Source of the DNA: a virus
Virus record (IMG/VR): IMGVR_UViG_3300045973_000984
Coordinates: 1-37,024 of that record
Length of the DNA: 37,024 bases
Direction: 5' to 3' (one strand)
This document shows positions 5,747 through 36,497 of this stretch, one piece after another. Position 1 is the first letter of the stretch; every line of letters starts with the position of its first letter. Both the position numbers and the translations under genes were made by a program. The notes beneath the pieces were generated by a model, which did not search any database, was not told the origin of the DNA, and worked only from the letters and a program-made list of their open reading frames with translations.

Positions 5747-5776
5747 GTAAACATTCCGTGGGTGGTTCTTACACCC
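5747..5776 (+). promoter_or_regulatory. Bipartite start-proximal element, copy 1
   Basis: GTAAACAT (5747-5754), 8 bases, TGGTTCT (5763-5769), then 7 bases to the ATG at 5777. The same boxes with identical 8-base spacing occur at 21698-21720. It lies between the primase stop and the GroES-like start. It may be a promoter giving a nearly leaderless transcript, or a phage-specific control site. No experimental support is available. Confidence 0.45.
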
Positions 5777-6361
5777 ATGAAGATTAACGTAATGCCGGGC
5801 CGGATTCTTGTTAAAAAGTATGAGGTAAAACTCAAAGGATCCATCATGCTGCCGCCGAGTCGCACCAAGATGTACGAGATCGGCCAAGTCGTCGATAACG
5901 GCAGCCTCCAGAAATTCGGACAGGACGGAAAATTCTCGACGGCGGAGACATACAAGCCGGGTGATCTCGTGCTGTTCATGCTGCCTTCATTCTCTTTGCC
6001 TGGAATTTCATTCGACATCAAGGGCGTGTCTCACTGCTTCCTCAATGCCGGAGACGTGATCGCCCGGCTGGCGAACGACACCATCGAGATCAAATCATTC
6101 CAGATCACAGGTGTTTACGTGCTGCTGCTTCCCACACTGCGCCAGACAGGGGCCATCATCATTCCCAGCGCCGCAGAAGAAGCCAAGAAGGAAAACCTCC
6201 ACTTTAGCGTGCTCCAGACGGGGCGTGACGTGAAAGAATCGTTCGACCAAGGCCAAGAAGTGTTCCCGGACAAGGGCCGGATCAATCCGCTCGTCATCGA
6301 CGGCCAGGACTACGCGTACGTTGACTATCAATTCATCTATGGCTCTCTGAGCATCGACTGA
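5777..6361 (+). CDS. Tandem GroES/Cpn10-like co-chaperonin
   Basis: A 194-residue protein with two consecutive GroES-like folds. Domain 1 (about 1-98) has MPGRILVKKYE, then GSIMLPPS where GroES has its GGI[VI]LP mobile loop, YEIGQVVDNG matching the GEVVAVG strand, KPGDLVLF, and DVIARL at the end. Domain 2 (about 107-190) repeats this order: GVYVLLLP, TGAIIIPSAA, HFSVLQTGRD, a degenerate GQEVF, and VIDGQDYAYVDYQFIYGSL matching the GroES C-terminal strand. Phages use Cpn10 homologues (T4 gp31) to help the host chaperonin fold the capsid protein. Tandem Cpn10 is known from chloroplast Cpn20. A GTG 15 bases upstream is in frame, but the ATG at 5777 is preferred because it begins the domain and has the GTTCT-N7 element. 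No GroEL homologue lies in the window. Domain 2 is the more divergent copy. Confidence 0.75.
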   Translation: MKINVMPGRILVKKYEVKLKGSIMLPPSRTKMYEIGQVVDNGSLQKFGQDGKFSTAETYKPGDLVLFMLPSFSLPGISFDIKGVSHCFLNAGDVIARLANDTIEIKSFQITGVYVLLLPTLRQTGAIIIPSAAEEAKKENLHFSVLQTGRDVKESFDQGQEVFPDKGRINPLVIDGQDYAYVDYQFIYGSLSID

Positions 6362-6378: not shown

Positions 6379-9300
6379 GTGAGCGAATTACGAATTGATT
6401 GGGGTCAGGCACGCTACTCCAAGGGTGACACCTTGGAGGCTAAAATTCAATTCGTAAGCTCTACCAGCACCAATTACGCGTCTTTATCATGGACGCTGTA
6501 CCTCAACGGAGTTCGGGAGCTTGAAGGTACCTCTAAAGTCATACGGCATACCGGCTCCCAGCATGGCGTTTATAGGCTGGTAGGGCGTGCCGTGGGCTAC
6601 GACGGTCAGGTAGCGATAGGCGACTCTTCCACCGTAGTGTCTGGCGACTTTGAAATCCAGTCCACGCTGAAGCCAGAGGCAGGCCGAACAATGCAGAGTC
6701 TTGGCTACGTTTACACTTGCGAGCAGACCGGTCCTCCTTCAGCGTTCACTTCCGGGGCACCTGTATCGGCTGCGTGCGAAGACATTTACCTCCTACCTGG
6801 AACCACCTATTTTAGAGTCGAGCCTGATCCGAGCACCTCCTCGCTGCCGGGCCAAGTAGTGACCAGAACTCCCACTGGAAACTGGAGCGTGACTGGAGCT
6901 GCAACAGGGTTGCCCTATGAATGCCTGGAGAACATCTATTACGTCCCGGCCCCGGCTGACCTCAAGCTGCGGATTTCCACAGAGACGTTCGCCCTGCCGA
7001 GTGGAGTAGTTCCAGCCTACCGATTTAGGATTCGGATTCAGTGCTTCTTCGATGGGGTGCAGGTCTATAGATTCTTGCCGTGCCCGGACACTCAGGCCCT
7101 GAGCGGAGCACTTGCGTCGGATCGCCGATTCGCAGTGCTGTTCAGTAATGTGGATCTGGCCGTAGATGCTGACACCGGCGAAAACAGGCTCGGAGCGCCG
7201 TCCGGCTCGGTCCAGAGTTACGTCACTGATCTTCCCAGCTCCCTATCCATTCCTTTAACTCCCGACGGGTTGCCTGACGCTTCAAACGCAGGCACTCGGA
7301 TGTCCTATACAGACCAAAACTGGATCACCACGTACGACCCGTTGCAGCCTGGCACCTTAGAAGTTGATGCCCGCTCCACTTACGCTATCGAGAAGAGCAG
7401 GCCATTCGTCATCTCGTTCATGATGCCTTCCTTCCCGATGATCGTTCAGAGGCCCAGGAGAGTTTACGGCTGGGTGGCGCTTTACATGGCCGGTGGATTT
7501 GTAAACGCTGGAACTTCAGCAAGCATAGAGGTGACTTCCGCCGGTGGAAACAGCTCGAAATCTGTGGTCGTACCTATTACTGGTGATTTCGATAGCGCTG
7601 ACTATTCAACCTACCTGAAGGTGGGTGAGGCCTCTGTCGATATAAGCGATGCAGAGTTCGTGGATAACGGATTGACAGGCACGGTTGTTTTAGACGAGTC
7701 CGCAGTAAGCGGAACGACGTGGCCTGTGGGCACAGACATCCCGGACCCTTACATGCCGGAGCCAGTCATCTATTCCACGTCGTCTGCGGCGTTCGCCCGG
7801 TATAACGGAGCCTGCTACTATAACGACGGTCCTGTAGAGACTGATCCGGGTGCTGATCTCCGCCCGATGACTGAAGACATCACGAGCTGCTCAGACCCGG
7901 AAGGGTCCGCTACGGTCGGAGGTGTAGGGATGTATTGCTACGGAGAGGTGAATGGTAAAGGCACCTTGCTGGTTCCTCAGCCGATGTATAATCCAGCCCT
8001 CTACGTGGCTCCTGTGAGCCAGGCCACCCATTGCTACTGCAACCCGTGTCTGGTGACTCCATGGGCGAATCCAGTGCCTGCATTTACACCGTTCGTGTCC
8101 TACGATGATAAGAGCTTTTGTGGTATCCCGTGGAGATACGACCCGTGCGAAGGCAGTGCCACCTCCCTCATTATTCCGTACGCTGTGGGCGCGGTGCCAC
8201 ACGAAACAGTAGCCTTGGATGGGAACTGCTACAGCAACCGGGGTGTCTCCAAGGATACGACTGGGTGCCGAGTAGTCAAGCTGACCGATGTAGCCGTGGC
8301 CTACGACTGTCAGGACGCTCTGTGCTTTACACCGGGAGGAGGCTCTGTGGATCCTGAGCTGGCGGGCATGACCGCCCGCTACCAGGATTACGAGACCGGA
8401 AAAGATGTGGATGTTTACATCGACCACGCCGACGCCGGAGTGCCCTATTTCGCTGTGATCCCGGAAACCTATGACTCAGGTCAAAACGGTCTTACAGACG
8501 GTCGAGCGGACGTTTGCGTTTCCGCAGGCGGAAAAGAGCACTATTTGTTTACATCCGCCGGTACCGGAACGATTGAGTTCGACTTTTACTCTCCCGGCGG
8601 GAAAGGGGTCCTGCTGCGCTATAGGAACAGCACAGTCACAGCTTACCCTGCTCAGTCATCAAGCACGAGCATCGACGTGATTCCAGGAGATAAGATTCTG
8701 TTTAGGATAGCCACCTACAAGACGGTAATCGTCAGCGTCTGCTGGAAGCCAGTGGTCGCGAAACCAAGGGTCTATGCTCAAGGGTCCATCACTCCCGGTT
8801 CCAGCACTCCAGTGACGGCTGTCGGATTCACAGGTCTCACCGACAGAAGCCCGTATTCCTTCTACGGCACTTTACCAGCAGACGTTCAAGTCAGTGAGGT
8901 CAACCCGGACTGCATTCTGACGGTGACGGCCCAGGGAGCAGAGCATGTGCTCATCCGCACCAGGAGCGTGACAGACGTGGCTCCAAGCTTGCCAAGTGGT
9001 GCTGCGTGGTACGCGAACCAAGCTCTCACCGGCCCGCTGACGTTTCGTCTTTACGCTGGGCGAGAGAATGCAGGCCAGAACGGGGACATGGATGTGTGGC
9101 TCGGCACTCCCGGTGTGCTGCCGGACGCTTTCTCCATGAGTCAGTATAAAGCTATTGTCAAGGTAAGCACTACGACGCTCACAGACCGGGTTTTCAACGT
9201 GACTCGAAACAGCCTTCGAGTAATCTCCTCTGGGCAGGTCGCATCCCATGTATCTCCATCCGATTATATTGCGAGCGACGGTGATCGGATCACTGTCCAG

Positions 9301-12767: not shown

Positions 12768-12968
12768 GTGAGAGTTACATGTGTGAAGCTATACACGCTT
12801 AAAGTAAACGGTAATGTAATATGTGAGGTCTCGATGGACGTCCCATCGCGGCTCCCCATGCCTGTTCAGCTTGACCCTGTCTGGCTGAGGGGCGTGGTAG
12901 CTGAGGCTGTGCGCACCTATTTTCATCCGGGAGCAAAATTAGAATCACAACCGCTAGTTAAGGTGTGA
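12768..12968 (+). CDS. Small hypothetical protein
   Basis: A 66-residue protein of unknown function with a hydrophobic beta start (VRVTCVKLYTLKVNGNVICEV), a proline-containing middle and a helical end (LRGVVAEAVRTYF). GTG at 12768 is chosen because GTTCT lies exactly 7 bases upstream, as at four other starts; a TTG at 12753 is in frame but has no support. The stop overlaps the next start (GTGA). It opens a rightward three-gene unit ending at the hairpin at 13679. Confidence 0.5.
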   Translation: MRVTCVKLYTLKVNGNVICEVSMDVPSRLPMPVQLDPVWLRGVVAEAVRTYFHPGAKLESQPLVKV

Positions 12969-13378
12969 CTGCTCAAGAATTATCAAGACTGTTGATCGAG
13001 GCTGCCGACGCAGACATCGACCCGAAGGTTCAGGCCTACGTGAACCGGCTGATGCTCCGTATCGCCTCGCAAAGCTCTCTGTCCATGTACTTGGTAGATC
13101 AGACGACTTTCAAGCCTGGCATAGCGGGCAGCACCAGTGATCAGGTCGAGGACGGTGATTTTAACGAAGGCGACAAGGACAGCGACGAAACCGTAATCGT
13201 GCAGCTATCCTTCCGACGTCTTCCCAAGGAGATCATAGCTCCCCTGCTCAGGATGATCGCTGCTCCGCGTGATCCTAAGCTCTTCCAGTTCATCAAAGAT
13301 GGCCAGGCTCGCACTGGCATCCATATCGAACTCAAATCGACGGATTTCCCTGGCGAGGAAATTGATTATGCCTTCTGA
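12965..13378 (+). CDS. Hypothetical protein
   Basis: A 137-residue acidic protein, not recognised. Residues 1-45 are helical (ELSRLLIEAADADI); residues 55-80 are a Gly/Asp/Ser-rich linker; residues 80-137 have strands and a helix (VIVQLSFRRLPKEIIAPLLRMI, TGIHIELKSTDF). The GTG start overlaps the previous stop and lies within the 16-mer GCTAGTTAAGGTGTGA, which also holds the GTG start at 6379. The next gene starts 11 bases before this one ends, so the three genes are probably cotranslated. Confidence 0.55.
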   Translation: MTAQELSRLLIEAADADIDPKVQAYVNRLMLRIASQSSLSMYLVDQTTFKPGIAGSTSDQVEDGDFNEGDKDSDETVIVQLSFRRLPKEIIAPLLRMIAAPRDPKLFQFIKDGQARTGIHIELKSTDFPGEEIDYAF

Positions 13379-26287: not shown

Positions 26288-26497
26288 ATGAAAGAAAGCA
26301 CAGAAGGAAGCGAAGGAAGCGAAGGAAGCGAAGGAAGCGAAGGAAGACGGCAGGGCATGGAAGCAATAAGAAGGAAGCTGGAAGAAGAGAGCCTGAGAGC
26401 ACGCATCAGGGAATGTAGCGAAGCGATAGCAAGAATGAAAGAGGAGGAAGTAGGGAGCACTATCCAGAGATGTGGCACGAGCGAAGCGAGCAGATGA
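26288..26497 (+). CDS. Small protein with Gly-Ser-Glu repeats and helix
   Basis: A 69-residue protein starting MKESTEGSEGSE. Residues 6-19 encode tandem Gly-Ser-Glu units from a 9-base DNA repeat. The remainder is a charged, probably coiled-coil helix (AIRRKLEEESLRARIRECSEAIARMKEEE). ATG at 26288 is preferred over a GTG at 26204 because it has a strong AAAGGAGG about 10 bases upstream, the clearest Shine-Dalgarno sequence in the window. Its TGA overlaps the ATG at 26494 (ATGA), consistent with coupled translation of the next gene. Function unknown. A non-coding repeat is the alternative. Confidence 0.45.
   Translation: MKESTEGSEGSEGSEGSEGRRQGMEAIRRKLEEESLRARIRECSEAIARMKEEEVGSTIQRCGTSEASR
26303..26347 (+). 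repeat. 9-base tandem repeat
   Basis: Four perfect GAAGGAAGC units (26303-26338) and a fifth with the last base changed (26339-26347). It encodes in-frame Gly-Ser-Glu repeats in the small gene at 26288, and may vary in copy number by slippage. Confidence 0.75.
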
Positions 26498-28542
26498 AGG
26501 AACAATCCAGAGAGGAGCCGGAGGCGACCCAGCGAGAGCGGATCAGGAATAAGCCCAGCACACGCCGCAGGCGATCCTGGGCACCCAAGCGGGAGCAAGG
26601 GAGCGCGGAGCGCTACGAACGAATCCAGAGGGCACAGGCGAAGCCGGTCAGCCCTATAGTTAGAGGTGTGGCAGACGAAATCATTAAAGGCTTGTTGGGA
26701 GCGCCGCTCCCGTCCCCAGTCCTGGAGGACGAGGACGACGATGCGATTAACGCAAACGAGCTGATTCCTGAGCTGAACTCAAAGTGGAGCACAGAGATCG
26801 TATGGTCTAACATGTGCCAGAAGGTCAGGATCAAGTACACAGACGAAGTGCAGGGCACGTGGAATCTGGGCAAGTACTATTCAGTGGCAGAAGCAGTGGC
26901 TAAAGCGAAGGACATCGTGCGCGAGGTTGAAACTCTGGACGCCAGGCAACCGTACACGCCTGAAGGCAGGTTTTGGGAATGGTACAATAAAGGTTACACC
27001 AGCCACGAGAATGCAAACAGCCAGACCGTTGCTCCGTTGATTTTAGAAGACGAGGATGACGACGCCATCAACGCTGAAGATTTACTGGCAGAGGATACAC
27101 CTTTAGTAGCAACCCGTAATTCAGACCCTCACTGGAGAATGGAAGCACGAACCCAGCACCTTCCAAACTTCGGAGGTAAATCCACGATAATATGGATTTA
27201 TTACAACAATACCGAGGAGGCAACCTGGAGGCTCACAATAGACGCCTCACCTTTGGAAGTTTTAAGCAGGCTGGACACTTTGTACAAGAACACACTGATC
27301 AGAGAAAAGGCGTGTCCGTATGATCCAGCGGCACACACTTTCTGGCAGTGGTATGCCGCAGGAAACCTTCCTGAATCAGTTACAGCTAAGCTCGTAAACG
27401 AGGATGAAGACGACGATGCCATTGATCAGATGGACATAATGCCTGTTGACCCGGAAGAAGAGCTGCTCGTTCGTCTGAACGCGTACCCGGACGACAGTTC
27501 TGATGACCGAAGGTCTCGCCGGTGGTGTGAAACCAAACTGGAGCATGACGACGAGGAGCAGTGCTATGTCCTCTTCCAGTACAGCGAGGAGTCAGAAGCA
27601 CCCCTTCAGGGCAAAGCCAATGCCCTGTATCTGACTCACCAGTTCGCAGCCATCGAAGAGGACTCAGACGACAGGCTTATCATTCCATACGACAAGGTGA
27701 CAGCAATCGACAGGCACGACCTTCACAACCTGGAGATATGCTGGTCCTGCTACAAGGCAGATGGGATCGTGGACAAGGGTTTTTACGAGGATTATCTGGA
27801 AGAAGAGCGCGAGAGGGCCTGGAATGAGGATGACGAGATTAACAACCGCGAGCCTGAATACACCCGTCTCAGCATCCGAACGGAGTTCATTAACGGCTTG
27901 ATCGAGAAGTTCCCTGCCTATGCGGAGAAGATCAAAGAGTTCAGTGCAGCCACTACGTGGGGGATTCAGGGCGTTAAGCTGTATGCTGGAGACGCGTACT
28001 CGATGCTCAACGAAGTCGCTAAGCGCAATAAAATCGAGTGGTCAGGCGCAGACCAAGGAGAGCAGTGGATTCGCGTGGACGACGTCCTCAACAAGGTCAC
28101 GGAAAACACGATTCGTCATTGGCTGAATCCAGTTCCTTACGACCAGCTAGAGCTGGAGATAGAGTCTTGCGCTCAAGTCGTGGCCCAGCTTCTGGAGGAG
28201 GATGAAGATGATGATGCGATCAACCAGACAGAGCTGGTGGAGGTTGATCCATGGCCTGCGAACCACACGTTGACGCAAATGAAGCGTGCGTGCCCTCTAT
28301 TTTTCGCCCGAGGCAACGCCAGATATTTCGGAACCCGAGGAACGTATAAGCGTGGAAACTTTCTTATACTCCACAACGTAAAGGAGTTCGATAACTATAC
28401 GCTGACGGCGTACGTGATTTACGAGTTCGTCCCTACAGAGTATGCGCCGAAAGGCATGCTCGTGCATCGTGGCACCGTGGACGAACTCGATAAGGCCGAG
28501 CGAGCCATTCAGTACGGGGAATTTAAGGGGAATCAGCCATGA
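26494..28542 (+). CDS. Modular protein with four EDEDDDAI acidic signatures
   Basis: A 682-residue protein of unknown function built from modules that each begin with an acidic signature, LEDEDDDAIN-x-x-[DE]L. Copies start at residues 77, 184, 303 and 567 (nucleotides 26722, 27043, 27400, 28192). Modules 1 and 2 (about 107 and 119 residues) are alike: W-rich strands, then PY[TD]P-xxxx-FW[EQ]WY-xx-G before the next signature. Module 3 (about 264 residues) ends in a domain with FINGLIEKFPAYAEKI and NTIRHWLNPVP, also found in the protein at 28944. Residues 1-70 are basic (RRRRSWAPKR). The upstream frame to ATG 26470 is possible, but ATG 26494 overlaps the preceding stop (ATGA) and is preferred. 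Synonymous codons differ among signature copies, so protein selection is evident. Possible virion or polyprotein-like protein. Confidence 0.7.
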   Translation: MKEQSREEPEATQRERIRNKPSTRRRRSWAPKREQGSAERYERIQRAQAKPVSPIVRGVADEIIKGLLGAPLPSPVLEDEDDDAINANELIPELNSKWSTEIVWSNMCQKVRIKYTDEVQGTWNLGKYYSVAEAVAKAKDIVREVETLDARQPYTPEGRFWEWYNKGYTSHENANSQTVAPLILEDEDDDAINAEDLLAEDTPLVATRNSDPHWRMEARTQHLPNFGGKSTIIWIYYNNTEEATWRLTIDASPLEVLSRLDTLYKNTLIREKACPYDPAAHTFWQWYAAGNLPESVTAKLVNEDEDDDAIDQMDIMPVDPEEELLVRLNAYPDDSSDDRRSRRWCETKLEHDDEEQCYVLFQYSEESEAPLQGKANALYLTHQFAAIEEDSDDRLIIPYDKVTAIDRHDLHNLEICWSCYKADGIVDKGFYEDYLEEERERAWNEDDEINNREPEYTRLSIRTEFINGLIEKFPAYAEKIKEFSAATTWGIQGVKLYAGDAYSMLNEVAKRNKIEWSGADQGEQWIRVDDVLNKVTENTIRHWLNPVPYDQLELEIESCAQVVAQLLEEDEDDDAINQTELVEVDPWPANHTLTQMKRACPLFFARGNARYFGTRGTYKRGNFLILHNVKEFDNYTLTAYVIYEFVPTEYAPKGMLVHRGTVDELDKAERAIQYGEFKGNQP

Positions 28543-28940
28543 TCGCTCGGATCGCAAATTTTACCTGCGTGTGGCAGATCAATGAGTCGGGTCATCCTGC
28601 TCTCTCAGATGCCCAGATTCGTTACCTGGCTGGCCGTGGTGGCTGGCTGATCAACGCGGAGCTGCATCAGACCCCTATCGACCGCGAGGTCGGTAATGGG
28701 GATTGTAGCGTGTGCGCCGGGCAAGGTGTGCCTGACCTGGACAGGGTGCAGAGTCTCATGGACAGGTACCCGTGGGGCCGGTTCTCTGTTGACGTGGGTG
28801 GCCCCTCCAGCACTTCAGCCTACATCTACATCGGGACGAATGATATGAATGCCTGGCGGGATGATTACAAGGCCCAGTGGGGAGACGTGGAAAAGCCTCA
28901 GTATTGGTCACACGATGTCCAGTCGCTGAAAATGGAATAA
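28539..28940 (+). CDS. Hypothetical protein
   Basis: A 133-residue protein, not recognised. It has an N-terminal strand (IARIANFTCVWQIN), a PALSDAQIRYLAGRGGWLINAEL segment, a CSVCAGQG motif (Cys-x2-Cys) and an SAYIYIGTNDM strand. The ATG overlaps the stop of the modular protein (ATGA), and the next modular protein starts 3 bases after its stop. The three are thus one cotranslated unit. No signature copy of EDEDDDAI is present in it. Confidence 0.55.
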   Translation: MIARIANFTCVWQINESGHPALSDAQIRYLAGRGGWLINAELHQTPIDREVGNGDCSVCAGQGVPDLDRVQSLMDRYPWGRFSVDVGGPSSTSAYIYIGTNDMNAWRDDYKAQWGDVEKPQYWSHDVQSLKME

Positions 28941-28943
28941 TTT

Positions 28944-30833
28944 ATGGCAGAGGAATCACTTAATACCGAGCTACTGCTGCGACAAGTCTTGGAGGATGAA
29001 GACGATGACGCCATCAACCAGAGCGATTTAATCCCTAAGGGAAAGGTGATCGAAGGCCCGTGGACGTTTGACACTGTGGCGAGAGGCCAACACAACTTAG
29101 GAATGCCCTTTAACCCGGAAGGGCTGTACGACATCGTCGCGCGGTGGAAGGGCAGGACTGTTTACGAACAGCCATCTAAGACACGGTCGGTCAAGAAGAC
29201 GCTTAAACAGCTACAGGACTCGATTTTATCGTTCGAGGACGCCCTTCCCTATGATCCTGCCCGGTTCAAGGATCCTATCGACTGGTTCATGGCTGCCAAG
29301 TGTGCGATGACCGGAGAATCCTGCCAGGATCAAGAGGTGGACGAGTCCTTGCTCAAAGAGGACGAAGACGACGATGCTATCGACCAGGGTGACCTGATGA
29401 CTCCGATTGCTCCTCCGATAGAGGAGGTGCGGAAGTGGCTGGAGGAAAATACGGACGCTGAGGATAATGCCGCGTACAATGATCCAGAAGAGGACATTAG
29501 GTATAAGTTTTCAAGCTGGGGCCTGTATCACGGCACGACGGTAGATGTTGCGAATGCCAGGGGGTTTGCCAAGAAGTATAAGTTCGTTCACTTGGAGGAG
29601 TCTGCGGACCACGACGAAGGCCACGCTGAGATCGTTGATAACGAATTGCCAGACGTTCCAGGCGATGAGTTTGAGAAATTTAAGGAGGATTTTGAAGGTT
29701 TAAGCGACTATCCTAGCTTGGACGACGAGGTATGGAGTTCGGTTCAATCGGAATTCCAAGACAAGCAGTGGGACTCGTTCTGGAAGAAAGAGTTCAAAGA
29801 CAGTCTCGTAAAAGAATATCCATACCTGAATGGCATTATAGACGCCCTTTACGAGGGCGACTATTTCTACGAGATGGTCCACGAGGCTGAGGATCACGCG
29901 AATGAGGTCTGGATCGAAGAGACAGGGTGCAGCTTCCATTATCGAACAGAAGCAGTGATGAAGCATATCACCGTGGAAGAGCTGCTGAAATACGCAGAAA
30001 TGGAGCCGGAACGGCAATACGAGGAATTTTCGGAGTACACTCAGAAGGATTTTACCGGGGTGCTGGTGGAGTATTTTCCAGACCGTAAAGCAGGGATTGA
30101 CGCAGTCATGGCGACCCCTACCGGGTTTGCCTTGTTCAAAGATGCCGTTAAGAGATACAATTCAGGGGCATCTGAATATTGGCACATCATTGAAGAGATG
30201 ACTCCTGCCTTTCTAAACCACTGGCTGCCGATTAAAGGTTCGCAACCAGGCCCTGGACAGGCAACCTTGCCACTGGGCGAGACAGAGGGCGTGCACGACC
30301 ATTCTTGCGTGATGGCGACCGTGGCAGATGAAGTTTCTGGCGCGGTGATCACCTGGGGCAGAACCCGAGTGGATGACGAGGATGTTTACGAAGGTGAAGG
30401 CGACGATGTAAAAGGCCGAGAGAACGAGCCACACGTGACCGTGCTCTACGGGCTGACTGAAACGAAGCCCAGTCCCGAGCTGCTGAAGATCATCGAGGAT
30501 ACCAAGCCGTTTACCGTGGAGGTAGGCACTTCGTCGATGTTCGAGAACGAGGAATACGACGTGCTCAAGTTCGATGTGGAAAGCGAAGACTTGAGGGCGC
30601 TCAACACCAAGCTGAAGGAGCTGAACTACACGGAGACGCATCCAGGGTATCATCCCCACCTGGCTGTGGCTTACGTGAAAAAGGGCACCTGCAAAGAGGC
30701 TACAGGCCAGCATCTCATGGTCGGCGATGACGAAGGAAAGGTCGTTTTCGAGGTGAACGAGGTCGTGTTTAGTGGCAGCGGCGAAGAAGGGACCAAGACA
30801 ACCCTGTTTCTCGGAAAGCCTAACGTGCTGTAG
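28944..30833 (+). CDS. Modular EDEDDDAI protein with C-terminal 2H phosphodiesterase
   Basis: A 629-residue protein sharing modules with its neighbour at 26494. EDEDDDAI signatures begin at residues 16 and 137 (nucleotides 28989, 29352). Module 5 has the LPYDPARFKDPIDWF end motif. The middle contains two related units with FKDSLVKEYPYLNGII and FTGVLVEYFPDRKAGI, the latter ending in LNHWLPIKG; they match FINGLIEKFPAYAEKI and RHWLNPVP in the neighbour. The C-terminus (about 450-600) is a 2H phosphodiesterase: PHVTVLYG holds the first His-x-Thr (H497, T499) and PHLAVAYV the second (H572), where Ala574 replaces the usual Thr/Ser. 2H enzymes cleave 2'-5' or cyclic phosphodiesters; phage Acb1 degrades CBASS signals. 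An anti-defence or virion role is inference. The serine/threonine loss at the second motif may weaken activity. Confidence 0.7.
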   Translation: MAEESLNTELLLRQVLEDEDDDAINQSDLIPKGKVIEGPWTFDTVARGQHNLGMPFNPEGLYDIVARWKGRTVYEQPSKTRSVKKTLKQLQDSILSFEDALPYDPARFKDPIDWFMAAKCAMTGESCQDQEVDESLLKEDEDDDAIDQGDLMTPIAPPIEEVRKWLEENTDAEDNAAYNDPEEDIRYKFSSWGLYHGTTVDVANARGFAKKYKFVHLEESADHDEGHAEIVDNELPDVPGDEFEKFKEDFEGLSDYPSLDDEVWSSVQSEFQDKQWDSFWKKEFKDSLVKEYPYLNGIIDALYEGDYFYEMVHEAEDHANEVWIEETGCSFHYRTEAVMKHITVEELLKYAEMEPERQYEEFSEYTQKDFTGVLVEYFPDRKAGIDAVMATPTGFALFKDAVKRYNSGASEYWHIIEEMTPAFLNHWLPIKGSQPGPGQATLPLGETEGVHDHSCVMATVADEVSGAVITWGRTRVDDEDVYEGEGDDVKGRENEPHVTVLYGLTETKPSPELLKIIEDTKPFTVEVGTSSMFENEEYDVLKFDVESEDLRALNTKLKELNYTETHPGYHPHLAVAYVKKGTCKEATGQHLMVGDDEGKVVFEVNEVVFSGSGEEGTKTTLFLGKPNVL

Positions 30834-30863: not shown

Positions 30864-33800
30864 ATGAGCTTACAGAATCTTGCTGAGTCCGCCCTATATT
30901 CCCTTCTGCCGGAAGGGCTGATAAGTCTTGATGAGCAAAGACTAATACAATCCGTGGTGGGCGGAATCGACGACCGGATGTCTGATCAACGGTCCTACAT
31001 CTCAAAACTGGAGATGCTGGTCTCTTGCCAGGGTCTGCCTGAGACTGATTCTGCTGGAAATCCAGCACTTAACGCAGTTATCACTCGCATCCAGTCCCCT
31101 AAAGGCAAAGTTTACAATCGCTCACTCGACATCCACGACGATACCCCGTCGGCAGACGATCCGGCACTGATCACCTGGGCAGCAGAGCAACTGAATCTGG
31201 ACGACGAGCACGTGCTGCTCGGGGTGAGCTATGGAGTGGATCCTCTGCGCACCGTCGATGCCAACATCCTGCCGTACCTGGCCTCCACCGTGGGTGCAGT
31301 CCTTTACCAGACCGCAGCACAGGATCCTGCCAACACAGACTCGGATGCCAGGCGACTGCTTCAGACGTGGTTTTCTCGACTCCAGATCAAGGGCACGTCG
31401 GCCAGCTTCGAGGCATTGGGCCGCCTGCTGGGATTCGATGATGTGCGGATGACTCCACTGTGGAGCAGGCTCAGTCCTCGGGTGCCTAACGACATCGGTG
31501 CGCCAGAGAACAACGAGGATCTGGCAGCGGTCCCGGACTTCCAGCCTCAGCAGGAGATCAACTCGTTTTACGACCCTCTTCAGATGAACGACGGTCCGTT
31601 CTTCGCCTGGAGCGGAACAGCCACGGCGCAGTACGGAACCAACAGCACTGAGTTTTACACGCAATCAGTGAACGGATTCAATCCTTTCTTCAAGGTCCTG
31701 GTGACAGGGGAAGCGCCAACTGACCCAGATTCAGAGCTGTCTCCGTTCGTTCTGTCCGGCGGAGGGCCGGAGACCAAGGCCTACGTGGACATCCCTGGAT
31801 CAGGTCTCCGATTTGAAGCCATCGCCGCCGGAGAGAGCTTTAACGGAATGGCGATTGTCGTCCAGGATTGGAACAGCGGGACGCACCGGGTGATGTCTGT
31901 GACGGATCGGCTGTCGGCGATCAAATACCGCAGCTCCTTTTACGATCTGGCGCTGACCATGGATTTTGATTCAGCGGAGCAGCGCTTCGGGAAGCAGGTC
32001 GTCACCGCCAACTCGGACCTCATCTCCAGCCCATCCTCCGCTAATTTCGGGCAGACAGCCGTGTCACCCTTCCGGGCTTGGTCCAGCGGATCCATTTATC
32101 AGGATCAAGAGATCAAAGACTGGACTACCAGCACAGACGTGAACGGAGCGCAGATCGTAGCTGCGGGCCGAGTGCAATCCGGGCTTACGGACTACCAACT
32201 GAATATGGCAGGCCTGGCGGCAGCCGGGAACCAGGTGGTGCAGGCCATGGAGGAGGTTCGACCCGCTACTCGGACCCCTCGCAGTGTGCATGTCGGTTAC
32301 ACACTCCAGGACCAGGCGGGATATGCCAATTACAGCTCGTTCGGAACCGTGACCTCGGTAAGCGTGGACGGCACCTCTTACGGCGTGCTCACCGGGCAGC
32401 CGTATCCTCCTTATCAGGTCGTGTTTGAGGCGGAATCCAGGGAAAATGGGACAGTGACTCTGAGCGAGATACTGACCGGGGAATCCTCTCCGACAGCTCC
32501 TCAGATAATCGGTCTGTCTGGATCCAATATCAGTCTGAGCGGGACGTTCGATTATAGTGACGCCTCCTGGATGTTTACGACGGACACCGGGACTGCGGAT
32601 TCTGTAAACATTTATGCTCGCTTTGCCCCGGCATCCACAGAGGTGGTTCGGGACAACCTGCCTGCGAATGCCGACCCCACAACGATTGCTGTGAGCAGCG
32701 ATGGCGGATGGGCAGTCGGATTCGGAGGTTCTCCTGCTGAATCCGCAGCATGTTTCGCCCAAAGAGCGGTCACTGACTTAGTCACAGGGTGGAACCCGGA
32801 CGCCTATTTTTACGCCGGAGACAATAGCCAGACCGACGGACGGTTGTCGCAAGCAGAGGTAAACCTCGGACCAGAACAGGCGTTTATCGCCGCGAAGAAG
32901 TTTTTTGTTACCTACGGGAACCATGACCTGGCGAACCCTTTGATGGCTGGTGGAGTTGCTGACGGATGGGACATGTCGGCGGAGATCAACTTGATGCCTT
33001 ATTTGCCTGGAAACGGCAGATACTACCACGTCAGGATCGGGCACGTGGAGCTGTTTTCGATTAACGCGGGATACAACACAAGCGCCCCTCCAAACCCAGG
33101 TTTTAGGGGTGATGGCTCTATTCCGACTGAGCCGGACGGAAACTGGTGTGAGGCCAAAGGCACCCAGGTTACAGGCGGGACTCTGACTCTGAGGTGCGCC
33201 CGACGGTACACGGTGGTGTCAGCCTCCGGTAGCGTGGAATACCCGGTAGCAAGCGGGAACCACTATAGTGACGGGGACGTGATTCAGGCCAGCTTTACAG
33301 CAGACAACACGACCGCAACCGTGACGGGTACAGTGAGACTGGACCTGCTCAACAGCGTTCAGGCTGAAAACATTAAGCAGTGGCTATTGAAATCCAACGC
33401 CCCGTGGAAAGTGGTGATGTTCCACTACCCTAATGAGTTCTCGAACGTAGTCGGCGGAGCCTGGTCATTAAATCAATACAGTCGGTTGCTGTGGCCTTGG
33501 AAAGAGTGGGGAGTAGACGTAGTGATTAACGGGCATGTCCACGTGTACTCCAGAGGTGTTCAGGACGATGTCACGCACATTATCATAGGGTTAGGAGGGT
33601 CGGCTATTGCTTCTTTCTCCTATCCACAGACTTACCAGAGTCCTTACGCTCTCCGAGAATACCCTTCGCATTTGGACGCCCTGCACCCTGATACGACGAA
33701 CTTGAACGGCGCGATGAAGTGGATCGTGACCCCTACGCTGCTGTCCGCTGTTGTTCAGACAACGACAGTTAGGGAGGTGACAGGCGTCGATCCTGTTATT

Positions 33801-36497
33801 GCAACGATTGACACCTGGAGCCTATCCAAACCCGAGATGGCTGTGGATTACCAGGCCCGGCCTGAGGATGAACTGGATGAGCCGGTGACAGAGATCACAG
33901 ACGATTATCCGTGGAAGCGCGACATCGTCGGCGGGGGTGAACTCGTGGACACCTCGATGTATGATCCTGCGGAGGCCGACCTCACAACTACGCCAGTAGG
34001 ATCGACAGTTGCAGTATCCGGTCAGGACGGAGCGCAATATGCAGTCACCCTGGACAGCACAGGAGCAGTTACTCCACGATTCAAAATCGAAGCCCGGTCA
34101 ACCGAACCCTACGTGCCGGGGCAAACGGCTGTCGCCTATACCGGTGCTTTCAAGTCTCTGAGTTCATTGGATGCCCGACAGGAGGAATCTCGACCCCGTC
34201 GCGTCCTGGGCCAGGACGTGTCTCAAGTGGATGTTAATTTCTCCTCCAACTACGGTGTGAGGTATTCCGTTGATGACATGGATCGAGCTATGGAGTCCGG
34301 GTGGGGCCTCTACCCGTTCGGAATCGTGAACGGAGTGCTCGTGGCTGATCCAATGAAATTCAACGGGCCTCACCACAGGGACGGTCTTGTGGCATGGTAT
34401 CCGATGCTGGAGCACCCAATGGACACCGTCCGGGTGGATGACCACGCTGTTTACGGGAACCACCTGGTTCCCATTGCAGGGTTCACAGCGACCAACCGGG
34501 CTATCGACGCCGATAGAGGATGCGTCACCAGCCTGCAAGCAGAATCAGTGCTTGCGTCAGAGGCAGCACCCAGCCTGCCAGCCAGCTTCAGCTTCGGATT
34601 CTGGATCAAGTATAACGCGAATACCGAAACGGACTCGACCACGACGATCCTATCGTTCGGACCCGTGTCTGTTCAGCTTTGTGCTACAACACCGGCTTAC
34701 GGTATAACAGTGAGCCTGTCCGGGCTGGCCTCACCGTTCGACCAGGTGCAGGTGTCGGAGCAGGGATTTGATTACGGATGGGTGTACTATGCGGCGACGT
34801 GGGATGCCGAGACACTCACATTCAATCAGTACCACTCCAGCGATCTGACAGAGTTCACAAGCTGGTATGGAGCAGGCATCCAGATACCTGGAGCAGTGCT
34901 GGACACCGGTGCTTTCAGCGTGACATCACTAGCTGGTAGTCCCATGGGGGCATATACACTGCAAGACGTTAGGATATGGAACAAAGTCAAAACCCAGCAG
35001 GAGCTGGCTCTGGCGAGATACCATGCCCCGTCGCCTACGGCTGTCCAATACCGGCCAGCCTGGTTGCAGTCTGTGAATAGCCAGGATCGCTACGGCGTGC
35101 GCGTCCTTTCTACAGGCTACGTGGCCCCGGACCTTCTGCCAGTGTCGATCAAGACTCCTGTTCAGGCTTGGGTCACACGCTACAAGGACACAGGGGAATA
35201 TGCCGCCCAGTCGCGACGAAAAGAGGTCGGACTAGGGTCCGGTAACACACCTCAGGTTGAGCAAACCCTCGGATTACAGTGGGACACGATGACATCGTCA
35301 GGCACCATCGCAGTGTCCAGCACAGGTGCAGAGGACGTAAATAACCCCGCGTGGCTGGCAGGAGGCCAAGCAGGCCAGGTTTTGTCCTTGAACAGTCCAG
35401 GCACCGTTTATAACAGTCACCAGTACGGCACGAATTCAACACTCATGCCTACCGGTATGAGCATTCCATGGCCCAACGGTCAGGTCGGGACGAACCCGTG
35501 TCGAGACCGGGTATGGGTGCTGGATGATGTTGGAGATTCCATGTATGAGGTTAGGGTGACTAAGGATGCGTTCGGCGCACCTTCCTTGCAGGCTACCCTC
35601 GTCGGCACCGATCACGTAGAGCAACTCACAGGGGCAGCCCTCTCGATGAGCGGCACGGTGACCAGCAGCCGGATGACGGTCAGTGCATCCCACGGGACCG
35701 TCTACGCTCAGCCTTACACTGGAACGGTGACTTCACCTCCGATTTATCTGTATTGCAACGAGGAGTCCAAAGTGAGCTTGGATGCCTCAGGGGTATTCAG
35801 TGCGTGGACTGATCCAACTGACTTCGGTCGCAACCAGTCAGCGCCAACAGCAGCCCTTCAGTCGAACGGCAAACTGTCATTCCAGGTAGCGAACAGCCTT
35901 CCTGCGGGTTTCTACAGGTTGGCCATAACGTCTGGAAACATCGGGCAGGTGGACTCAGAGTTCAAAGGGTTCAAGACAGTGATCACAGCAGGTGACGTTG
36001 CTTTCGAGGCAGTGCTCTGCCAGCACAGCACTGGGGCAGATTTCACAGCTACCGATACGTTCGAGTTCAAGGTGCCCTCTCCGTTGCCAGGCCCGTGGAT
36101 ATTGTCTGTTGATTGGACGAACAGTCTCCGAGACTCCCGGCATGGAACCGCCCGGCAGCTCAAGATCACTGGCATCGAGGCTGTGCTGCTGAATACCTCG
36201 TTATACAGACTGGACTTAGGAGCCTCAGCCGTCACTCTCGCGAGCTTGGATACGGCAGCGTTCCCGGCGACACCCGGCGGGTGGGTGGCAACGATCACGA
36301 GCGCAGGCACAGCTTACTCGTACACCCATGAGTCCCAGATTCGTGTCAGTAACGAGACTGTCGAGACGAAGCAACCGCTGTCCAACGTCCTGACATCGAA
36401 TACCTCAGATCGGACAGAAGATGTCTTGATCGGATCGCCGGTGACCATCTCTGATGCCGTAAGGCCTTCACTACCGATCTACTCACCAATCGTCTAA
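30864..36497 (+). CDS. Giant baseplate/tail protein with metallophosphoesterase and LamG domains
   Basis: A 1,877-residue protein. Residues 1-200 resemble P2 gpI-type baseplate proteins: NILPYLASTVGAVL, then a helix pair and RLQIKGTSASFEALGRLLGF, the KGT-x-x-x-x-x-L-x-x-x-LG signature. Residues about 605-920 are a calcineurin-like metallophosphoesterase of the purple-acid-phosphatase type, with the metal ligands in order: D613 (SSDGGW), GDN at 652-654, GNHD at 685-688, FHYP, and NGHVHVY (H891, H893). Residues about 1170-1390 look like a LamG/concanavalin-type lectin (GLVAWYP to VRIWNKVKTQQEL). Other parts are Ser/Thr/Gly-rich beta regions with two related QDxxxYxVxLxSTGxVxP segments (about 1055 and 1410). 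The ATG at 30864 lacks a Shine-Dalgarno sequence. It ends TAATG with the next gene. It would place a phosphoesterase on the tail tip, possibly for cell-surface polymers. Confidence 0.7.
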   Translation: MSLQNLAESALYSLLPEGLISLDEQRLIQSVVGGIDDRMSDQRSYISKLEMLVSCQGLPETDSAGNPALNAVITRIQSPKGKVYNRSLDIHDDTPSADDPALITWAAEQLNLDDEHVLLGVSYGVDPLRTVDANILPYLASTVGAVLYQTAAQDPANTDSDARRLLQTWFSRLQIKGTSASFEALGRLLGFDDVRMTPLWSRLSPRVPNDIGAPENNEDLAAVPDFQPQQEINSFYDPLQMNDGPFFAWSGTATAQYGTNSTEFYTQSVNGFNPFFKVLVTGEAPTDPDSELSPFVLSGGGPETKAYVDIPGSGLRFEAIAAGESFNGMAIVVQDWNSGTHRVMSVTDRLSAIKYRSSFYDLALTMDFDSAEQRFGKQVVTANSDLISSPSSANFGQTAVSPFRAWSSGSIYQDQEIKDWTTSTDVNGAQIVAAGRVQSGLTDYQLNMAGLAAAGNQVVQAMEEVRPATRTPRSVHVGYTLQDQAGYANYSSFGTVTSVSVDGTSYGVLTGQPYPPYQVVFEAESRENGTVTLSEILTGESSPTAPQIIGLSGSNISLSGTFDYSDASWMFTTDTGTADSVNIYARFAPASTEVVRDNLPANADPTTIAVSSDGGWAVGFGGSPAESAACFAQRAVTDLVTGWNPDAYFYAGDNSQTDGRLSQAEVNLGPEQAFIAAKKFFVTYGNHDLANPLMAGGVADGWDMSAEINLMPYLPGNGRYYHVRIGHVELFSINAGYNTSAPPNPGFRGDGSIPTEPDGNWCEAKGTQVTGGTLTLRCARRYTVVSASGSVEYPVASGNHYSDGDVIQASFTADNTTATVTGTVRLDLLNSVQAENIKQWLLKSNAPWKVVMFHYPNEFSNVVGGAWSLNQYSRLLWPWKEWGVDVVINGHVHVYSRGVQDDVTHIIIGLGGSAIASFSYPQTYQSPYALREYPSHLDALHPDTTNLNGAMKWIVTPTLLSAVVQTTTVREVTGVDPVIATIDTWSLSKPEMAVDYQARPEDELDEPVTEITDDYPWKRDIVGGGELVDTSMYDPAEADLTTTPVGSTVAVSGQDGAQYAVTLDSTGAVTPRFKIEARSTEPYVPGQTAVAYTGAFKSLSSLDARQEESRPRRVLGQDVSQVDVNFSSNYGVRYSVDDMDRAMESGWGLYPFGIVNGVLVADPMKFNGPHHRDGLVAWYPMLEHPMDTVRVDDHAVYGNHLVPIAGFTATNRAIDADRGCVTSLQAESVLASEAAPSLPASFSFGFWIKYNANTETDSTTTILSFGPVSVQLCATTPAYGITVSLSGLASPFDQVQVSEQGFDYGWVYYAATWDAETLTFNQYHSSDLTEFTSWYGAGIQIPGAVLDTGAFSVTSLAGSPMGAYTLQDVRIWNKVKTQQELALARYHAPSPTAVQYRPAWLQSVNSQDRYGVRVLSTGYVAPDLLPVSIKTPVQAWVTRYKDTGEYAAQSRRKEVGLGSGNTPQVEQTLGLQWDTMTSSGTIAVSSTGAEDVNNPAWLAGGQAGQVLSLNSPGTVYNSHQYGTNSTLMPTGMSIPWPNGQVGTNPCRDRVWVLDDVGDSMYEVRVTKDAFGAPSLQATLVGTDHVEQLTGAALSMSGTVTSSRMTVSASHGTVYAQPYTGTVTSPPIYLYCNEESKVSLDASGVFSAWTDPTDFGRNQSAPTAALQSNGKLSFQVANSLPAGFYRLAITSGNIGQVDSEFKGFKTVITAGDVAFEAVLCQHSTGADFTATDTFEFKVPSPLPGPWILSVDWTNSLRDSRHGTARQLKITGIEAVLLNTSLYRLDLGASAVTLASLDTAAFPATPGGWVATITSAGTAYSYTHESQIRVSNETVETKQPLSNVLTSNTSDRTEDVLIGSPVTISDAVRPSLPIYSPIV

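Follow-up and report, generated by a model that had tools for sequence, protein, structure and literature searches.

Organization of the Locus

The window, a stretch of 37,024 nucleotides of viral DNA (positions 1 to 37,024 of the IMG/VR record IMGVR_UViG_3300045973_000984), carries on its plus strand the paralogous ORFs A (26668–28542) and C (28944–30833), joined by the untagged gene B (28539–28940; 133 aa). The start of ORF A is most likely the GTG at 26668 and not the ATG at 26470; the GTG start is common to the window and the relatives G002, G006, G007 and G010, and is forced in G006 by an in-frame stop just upstream. The peptide EDEDDDAI was found six times in the window, with four copies in ORF A (26725–26748, 27046–27069, 27400–27423 and 28198–28221) and two in ORF C (28992–29015 and 29358–29381). 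The original prediction had named six copies in these two proteins and all are present at the sites it gave, with its coordinates up to 6 nt off the first E codon. None of 2000 shuffles of A and C contained EDEDDDAI, and no similar motif was found in the ORFs of the window other than A and C. The peptide was carried by none of the families in the libraries searched, in line with the earlier statement that it belonged to no known family. An exact scan of IMG/VR (2.9 million viral contigs) for DNA encoding EDEDDDAI returned four further contigs, in which it lies in unrelated proteins, and the peptide extended by [ND]xx[DE] had no further match in the same scan. Synonymous differences between the copies averaged 4.33 of eight codons, compared with 4.18 expected under a random draw from the codon usage of the genes. 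The invariance of the peptide, with codons as scrambled as random draws and flanking modules that have diverged to about 30% identity, indicates selection on the tag peptide, in keeping with the original view that the peptide itself is conserved.

Each tag opens a module, the six copies sitting at module boundaries of A and C as predicted. Modules A1 (26728–27048, about 107 aa), A2 (27049–27402, about 118 aa) and C1 (28995–29360, about 122 aa) represent one small domain, with identities of 29% between A1 and A2 and 33% between A2 and C1; A1 is also homologous to a C-terminal module of relative G007. The common PY[TD]P...FW[EQ]WY end ascribed to several modules holds for A1 (PYTP..FWEWY) and A2 (PYDP..FWQWY), whereas C1 ends in PYDP...IDWF. 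A second domain, with an HWL end, does occur in both proteins as stated earlier, in the paralogous modules A3 (27403–28200, about 266 aa; with a counterpart in C of the relatives) and C2 (29361–30290). ORF A closes with module A4 (28201–28539), conserved in five of the five relatives with the locus (34–45% identity), and ORF C with a 2H phosphoesterase domain (30303–30809). The AF2 model of A was poor (mean pLDDT 47), which was attributed to a shallow alignment, and was usable for A1 and A4 only; A1 reached about 55–78 at residues 20–90, with a beta-beta-beta-alpha arrangement. In the model of C, the HWL domain (residues 161–320) lies mostly at pLDDT 70–90, with most of the 2H domain above 80, and both tags fall outside the folded domains in low-confidence, presumably disordered segments (pLDDT below 50, at residues 128–154 for the second).

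Tags in Related Phages

Direct searches of IMG/VR and of named phages returned no relatives of A, and 2H domains were the only matches obtained with A and C. A search with the portal protein recovered 22 relatives (51–75% identity), of which five (G001, G002, G006, G007 and G010) keep the A-B-C order, with gene B 52–60% identical to that of the window. Gene B, searched against genome contigs, gave nothing beyond one weak 25-residue match. In the relatives with the locus, A is conserved at its beginning and its end and carries differing cassettes in between, with exchange at the tags; C carries the HWL domain directly after a tag, followed by the 2H domain in complete copies.

Copies that are not conserved in relatives had been named as grounds for refutation. 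The letters EDEDDDAI are absent from the relatives, but the motif is kept in substance: the equivalent joints are occupied by a different tag, which [LIV]xE directly precedes in nearly every case, in the form [LIV]-x-E↓[S/A/G/D]-acidic run-x-x-K-[DE]-[LV] (the arrow marking the predicted cut). Such joints read IIRQLLE↓ADDDEASWKDA, ALQE↓SDGDFDVKEV, ALQE↓GEGDDFEVKDL, MVQE↓GLEDDDFDLKSL and KRRLIE↓SDDQES. The two better-covered relatives hold about 25 tags each, both at N-termini and internally, in polyproteins of up to 2152 residues. When a relaxed upstream site was also required, 28 tags were counted in G002, mostly in chains of 2152, 1779, 1343 and 582 residues, followed by G006 (26, one discounted), G010 (7) and G007 (4). 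Polyproteins of 1146–2152 residues carry up to about ten tags each, with a module spacing of mostly 90–250 residues. A genome-wide search of G006 with the downstream half only gave 19 copies after de-duplication (24 matches listed), and the reversed G006 proteins gave no copy of comparable acidity. Similarly, an independent acidic-site scan found 26 sites in G006 against 6 in its reversed proteins, 16 against 1 in G002, 7 against 1 in the window and 6 against 1 in G007, with 6 against 5 in G011 and 1 against 1 in G022. Repeated tags were not above background in G011 and G022 (portal identity 51–55%), in which [LIV]xE N-termini were seen in some proteins. The corrected tag-pattern scan returned only the clade members already known, plus isolated matches resembling chance or an unrelated conserved peptide.

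The tag differs from phage to phage, with DWK[DE][VA] in G002, F[DE]xKD[LI] in G006 and EDEDDDAI[ND]xx[DE][LI] in the window, and the identity of the tag core was found to be 0.42 within phages compared with 0.36 between them (0 of 1000 label shuffles). If the tag tracks a partner, for instance a protease or scaffold, likeness within a phage is to be expected; recent paralogy within a genome may also add to it. The tagged chains of the relatives contain NUDIX domains (E down to 1e-18), as well as weak matches below the cut-off to a CxxCxxCC chelating domain (E 0.006) and to PARP (E 0.02); most modules had no match. Of three polyproteins compared with named phages, two had no match; in the third, no more than about 12% of the length was matched, and every match listed fell at its NUDIX module.

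Predicted Cleavage-Site Consensus and Prohead Protease

The sequence upstream of the tags was evaluated in the relatives G002, G006, G007 and G010 with the downstream K[DE] motif as the sole anchor for the tags. [LIVM]xE[ASGDN] was found just upstream in 47 of 59 tags, compared with 1 of 57 and 2 of 59 shifted control windows (3 of 116). Among the 45 tags with E[ASG], L, I, V, M or F was present at P3 in 80%, and at P2, P4 and P5 in 22%, 16% and 18%, respectively, against a background of 26%. Sites of T4 gp21 mostly carry small residues at P1'. This position is S, A, G or D in the relatives and D in all six window sites; D lies within the range of the clade, since G006 uses it at 9 of 26 sites. 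The six window tags all fit [VIL]xE, with predicted cuts after the first E of EDEDDDAI at VLE↓D, ILE↓D, VNE↓D and LEE↓D in ORF A and at VLE↓D and LKE↓D in ORF C. The predicted cleavage point, the [LIV]xE just upstream, was absent from the original prediction. T4 gp21 cuts after L/I-X-E (PMC9026906), and as judged from sequence the P3/P1 pattern of the tags is that of this prohead protease. [LIV]xE alone is a weak motif, however, and is also found at the N-terminus of a tail protein (MSLQNLAE↓S).

Of 11 records tested, five (G004, G006, G010, G011 and G022) had S77 protease and gp23-type capsid genes scoring above the curated cut-off. Neither was found in the 37-kb window, which is a fragment without the capsid gene region. 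The S77 protease ORFs lie at 8233–9849 in L073, 304–2016 (minus strand) in L074, 6435–8102 in L075, 7332–8996 in L076 and 7027–8589 in L077; their length of 520–570 residues suggests that they may be fusions of a gp21-like protease with a scaffold-like C-terminal part.

N-Terminal Peptides

ORF A of the window begins with a capsid-targeting-like peptide of 20 residues, (M)ADEIIKGLLGAPLPSPVLE↓ (26668–26727), and ORF C with MAEESLNTELLLRQVLE↓ (28944–28994), the latter comparable to MKNLTKRRLIE↓SDD in relative G010. The corresponding A peptides of G002, G006, G007 and G010 are 11 residues long and end in [LIV]xE (MIDQIIRQLLE, MAKEIIQHLLE, MTDEIIKHLLE and MIREILAFVTE, respectively), and the probable head-core proteins of G006 and G004 have similar N-termini (MDSTIKRILGE↓AEDD and MADIIKLILGE↓ADD). 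In T4, the first 10 residues of IPIII are sufficient for targeting and end at a gp21 site (PMC9026906). A putative targeting peptide of this kind, of about ten residues and ending in L/I-x-E, is found in A of the relatives and in C of the window and of G010.

The 2H Phosphoesterase Domain

The C-terminal domain of C was assigned to the 2H phosphoesterases (Acb1/LigT/Usb1 fold) by PF13563 (E 3e-9) and by Foldseek with the predicted model, which matched Usb1 (E 2e-5), LigT and Acb1 (E 1e-4); its score against the Acb1 profile model was below the cut-off. The domain shares its fold and the positions of both catalytic His residues with 2H phosphoesterases, including the anti-CBASS protein Acb1, with HVT at residue 497 and HLA at residue 572. 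It differs from them in being fused to a tagged polyprotein and in its second motif (30657–30668, residues 572–575), which is HLA and not HxT/S. Close relatives have HLT or HMT at this position, and the activity of the window enzyme may therefore be changed. As part of the system considered below, the module could eliminate nucleotide signals used in defence or take part in RNA end processing. A similar 2H gene, standing alone, is found in a 595-kb uncultured phage (L013, LR756511.1), with a distantly related portal gene some 2 kb away.

Proposed Mechanism and Alternatives

A and C are probably head-packaged effector polyproteins cut by a prohead protease, with EDEDDDAI as the version of the tag used by the window phage. 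They would be effector polyproteins of a large T4-like phage, in which the full tag is [LIV]-x-E↓D-E-D-D-D-A-I-[ND]-x-x-[DE]-[LI] and EDEDDDAI its downstream half. An amphipathic N-terminal peptide of about 11–20 residues would target each polyprotein into the prohead, where a gp21-type (S77) protease would cleave each [LIV]xE site behind its E. This would detach the targeting peptide and release the modules for injection alongside the DNA. The tags, their boundary position, the site consensus and the protease of the relatives are computed findings; that the chains are packaged, cut and injected is inferred by analogy with T4, and the targets of the module enzymes are likewise putative. This reading is suggested by the recurrence of [LIV]xE↓[ASGD], acidic residues and K[DE] at homologous joints of the relatives, by the excess of upstream sites over controls together with the complete fit of the window sites, by the S77 protease and gp23-type capsid genes of the relatives and the N-termini resembling head-core proteins, by the long multi-tag chains with NUDIX and 2H modules and cassette differences at the tags, and by the position of both tags of C outside the folded domains of the model. 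Counted against it are the D at P1' in every window site, the lack of a protease or capsid gene in the window and the weakness of [LIV]xE as a motif. The comparative evidence favors two of the three roles suggested originally, polyprotein processing site and packaging signal, and docking could be a second role of the same peptide.

The strongest alternative is that the tag serves capsid targeting or scaffold binding and is repeated for avidity, with the chains packaged whole and only the N-terminal peptide removed. The targeting-like N-termini agree with this, the downstream acidic half is conserved beyond the needs of a T4-type cleavage site, and D at P1' could make the internal sites poor substrates; nevertheless, [LIV]xE accompanies internal as well as N-terminal tags, beyond what targeting alone explains, and the alternative is considered unlikely. 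Less probable still, at about half that weight, is a docking peptide, a short linear motif that binds a single partner from phage or host and has no connection with the head, in which case the modules would be scaffolded enzymes. It would account for the extreme conservation of the peptide with saturated codons, and the genome-specific versions of the tag suggest co-evolution with a partner, but the [LIV]xE consensus and the N-terminal peptides common to head-core proteins are left unexplained. An acidic inter-domain linker without specific function is highly improbable, despite the location of tags in segments predicted to be disordered or of low confidence, and is strongly disfavored by the counts: six invariant copies have saturated synonymous sites, and the tag has a precise consensus on both sides of the cut and is near-absent from reversed-protein controls. 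A calcium-binding EF-hand or dockerin-like loop was rejected as scarcely credible, since the likeness of E-D-E-D-D-D-A-I-N-x-x-E-L to D-x-D-x-D-G-x-I-x-x-x-E-L (acidic spacing, I at loop position 8 and E/D at 12) is offset by E for Asp at position 1 and D for Gly at position 6 in all six copies, by the lack of any Pfam match up to E 0.1 and by the variable length of the tags in relatives, which breaks the spacing.

Taking processing by the prohead protease as the preferred reading, we lean slightly towards a broader one, in which an environmental clade of large phages carries dozens of effector modules on a few chains, with a combined targeting and cleavage tag at each joint that is homogenized within a phage and diverges between phages, the modules being swapped as cassettes and released in the head by the capsid protease in a manner reminiscent of RNA viruses. 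If true, phages would have a counterpart to the polyprotein systems of RNA viruses, with the protease of capsid maturation as its driver, and the loading of many effectors by one phage would be explained. The tag would also serve as a sequence handle for predicting the virion-delivered effector repertoire from genomes, including candidate anti-defence enzymes of unknown fold, and the similarity of tags within a phage would make co-evolution of protease or scaffold and substrate testable.

Relation to Known Systems

The T4 internal head proteins (IPI–IPIII and Alt) resemble the tagged chains in the short N-terminal amphipathic peptide ending in [LI]xE, the gp21-type protease present in the clade and the presumed injection of effectors. 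T4 internal proteins have a single N-terminal propeptide, and Alt also a C-terminal one (PMC9026906), whereas here the site and acidic tag recur in one chain up to about ten times. In phiKZ and SPN3US, the ejection proteins form a large virion cargo, and multiple head proteins are cleaved behind a short motif that has E as its last residue (PMC5694885, PMC10052503); multiple head proteins cut by a prohead protease are likewise predicted here. Apart from self-cleavage of the protease, the cuts identified in giant phages release N-terminal propeptides (PMC10052503), and no repeated module-delimiting tag is described in the text consulted. Polyvalent proteins combine many enzymatic domains per chain, including 2H, were proposed to be delivered with DNA and were likened to RNA-virus polyproteins (Iyer et al. 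2017; PMC5512222). As in these proteins of phages and conjugative elements, several unrelated effector domains are found in one polypeptide here, with 2H, NUDIX and uncharacterised modules in the tagged chains. Their release was proposed to occur via embedded peptidase domains, whereas the joints described here fit a separate head protease and a genome-specific tag. In the open-licence literature, polyvalent proteins and prohead processing were found described separately, and their combination was not found. The window tag is presumed, by analogy, to be the variant, particular to its lineage, of a processing and targeting tag that recurs in head-packaged effector polyproteins, and the system is best read as a new variant on T4 internal proteins and polyvalent proteins.

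Other Features of the Window

Downstream of ORF C, a tail-like protein of 1877 residues (30864–36497; weak Tail_P2_I) with an embedded calcineurin-like phosphoesterase (PF00149, E 8e-10) has no relative in named phages. A GroES-like co-chaperonin gene is located at 5762–6361; jumbo phages of groups 2 and 3 are reported to carry HSP10 (PMC7824862). The string GTARTTAnGG, or a near variant, precedes by about 4 nt the start codon of genes whose N-termini resemble capsid-targeting peptides, at 26655–26667 and 12950–12964 in the window and also in L055, L057, L058, L073, L075 and L076. Exact copies precede an ORF start in 5 of 6 cases in G002 and 4 of 7 in G006, and the string may act as a late promoter or as an unusual signal for ribosome binding. 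The same string stands upstream of a small window ORF (12965–13378) that begins (M)TAQELSRLLIE↓AADAD and is a candidate capsid-targeted protein, with a similar N-terminus, MTDRELAILLIE, in G002.
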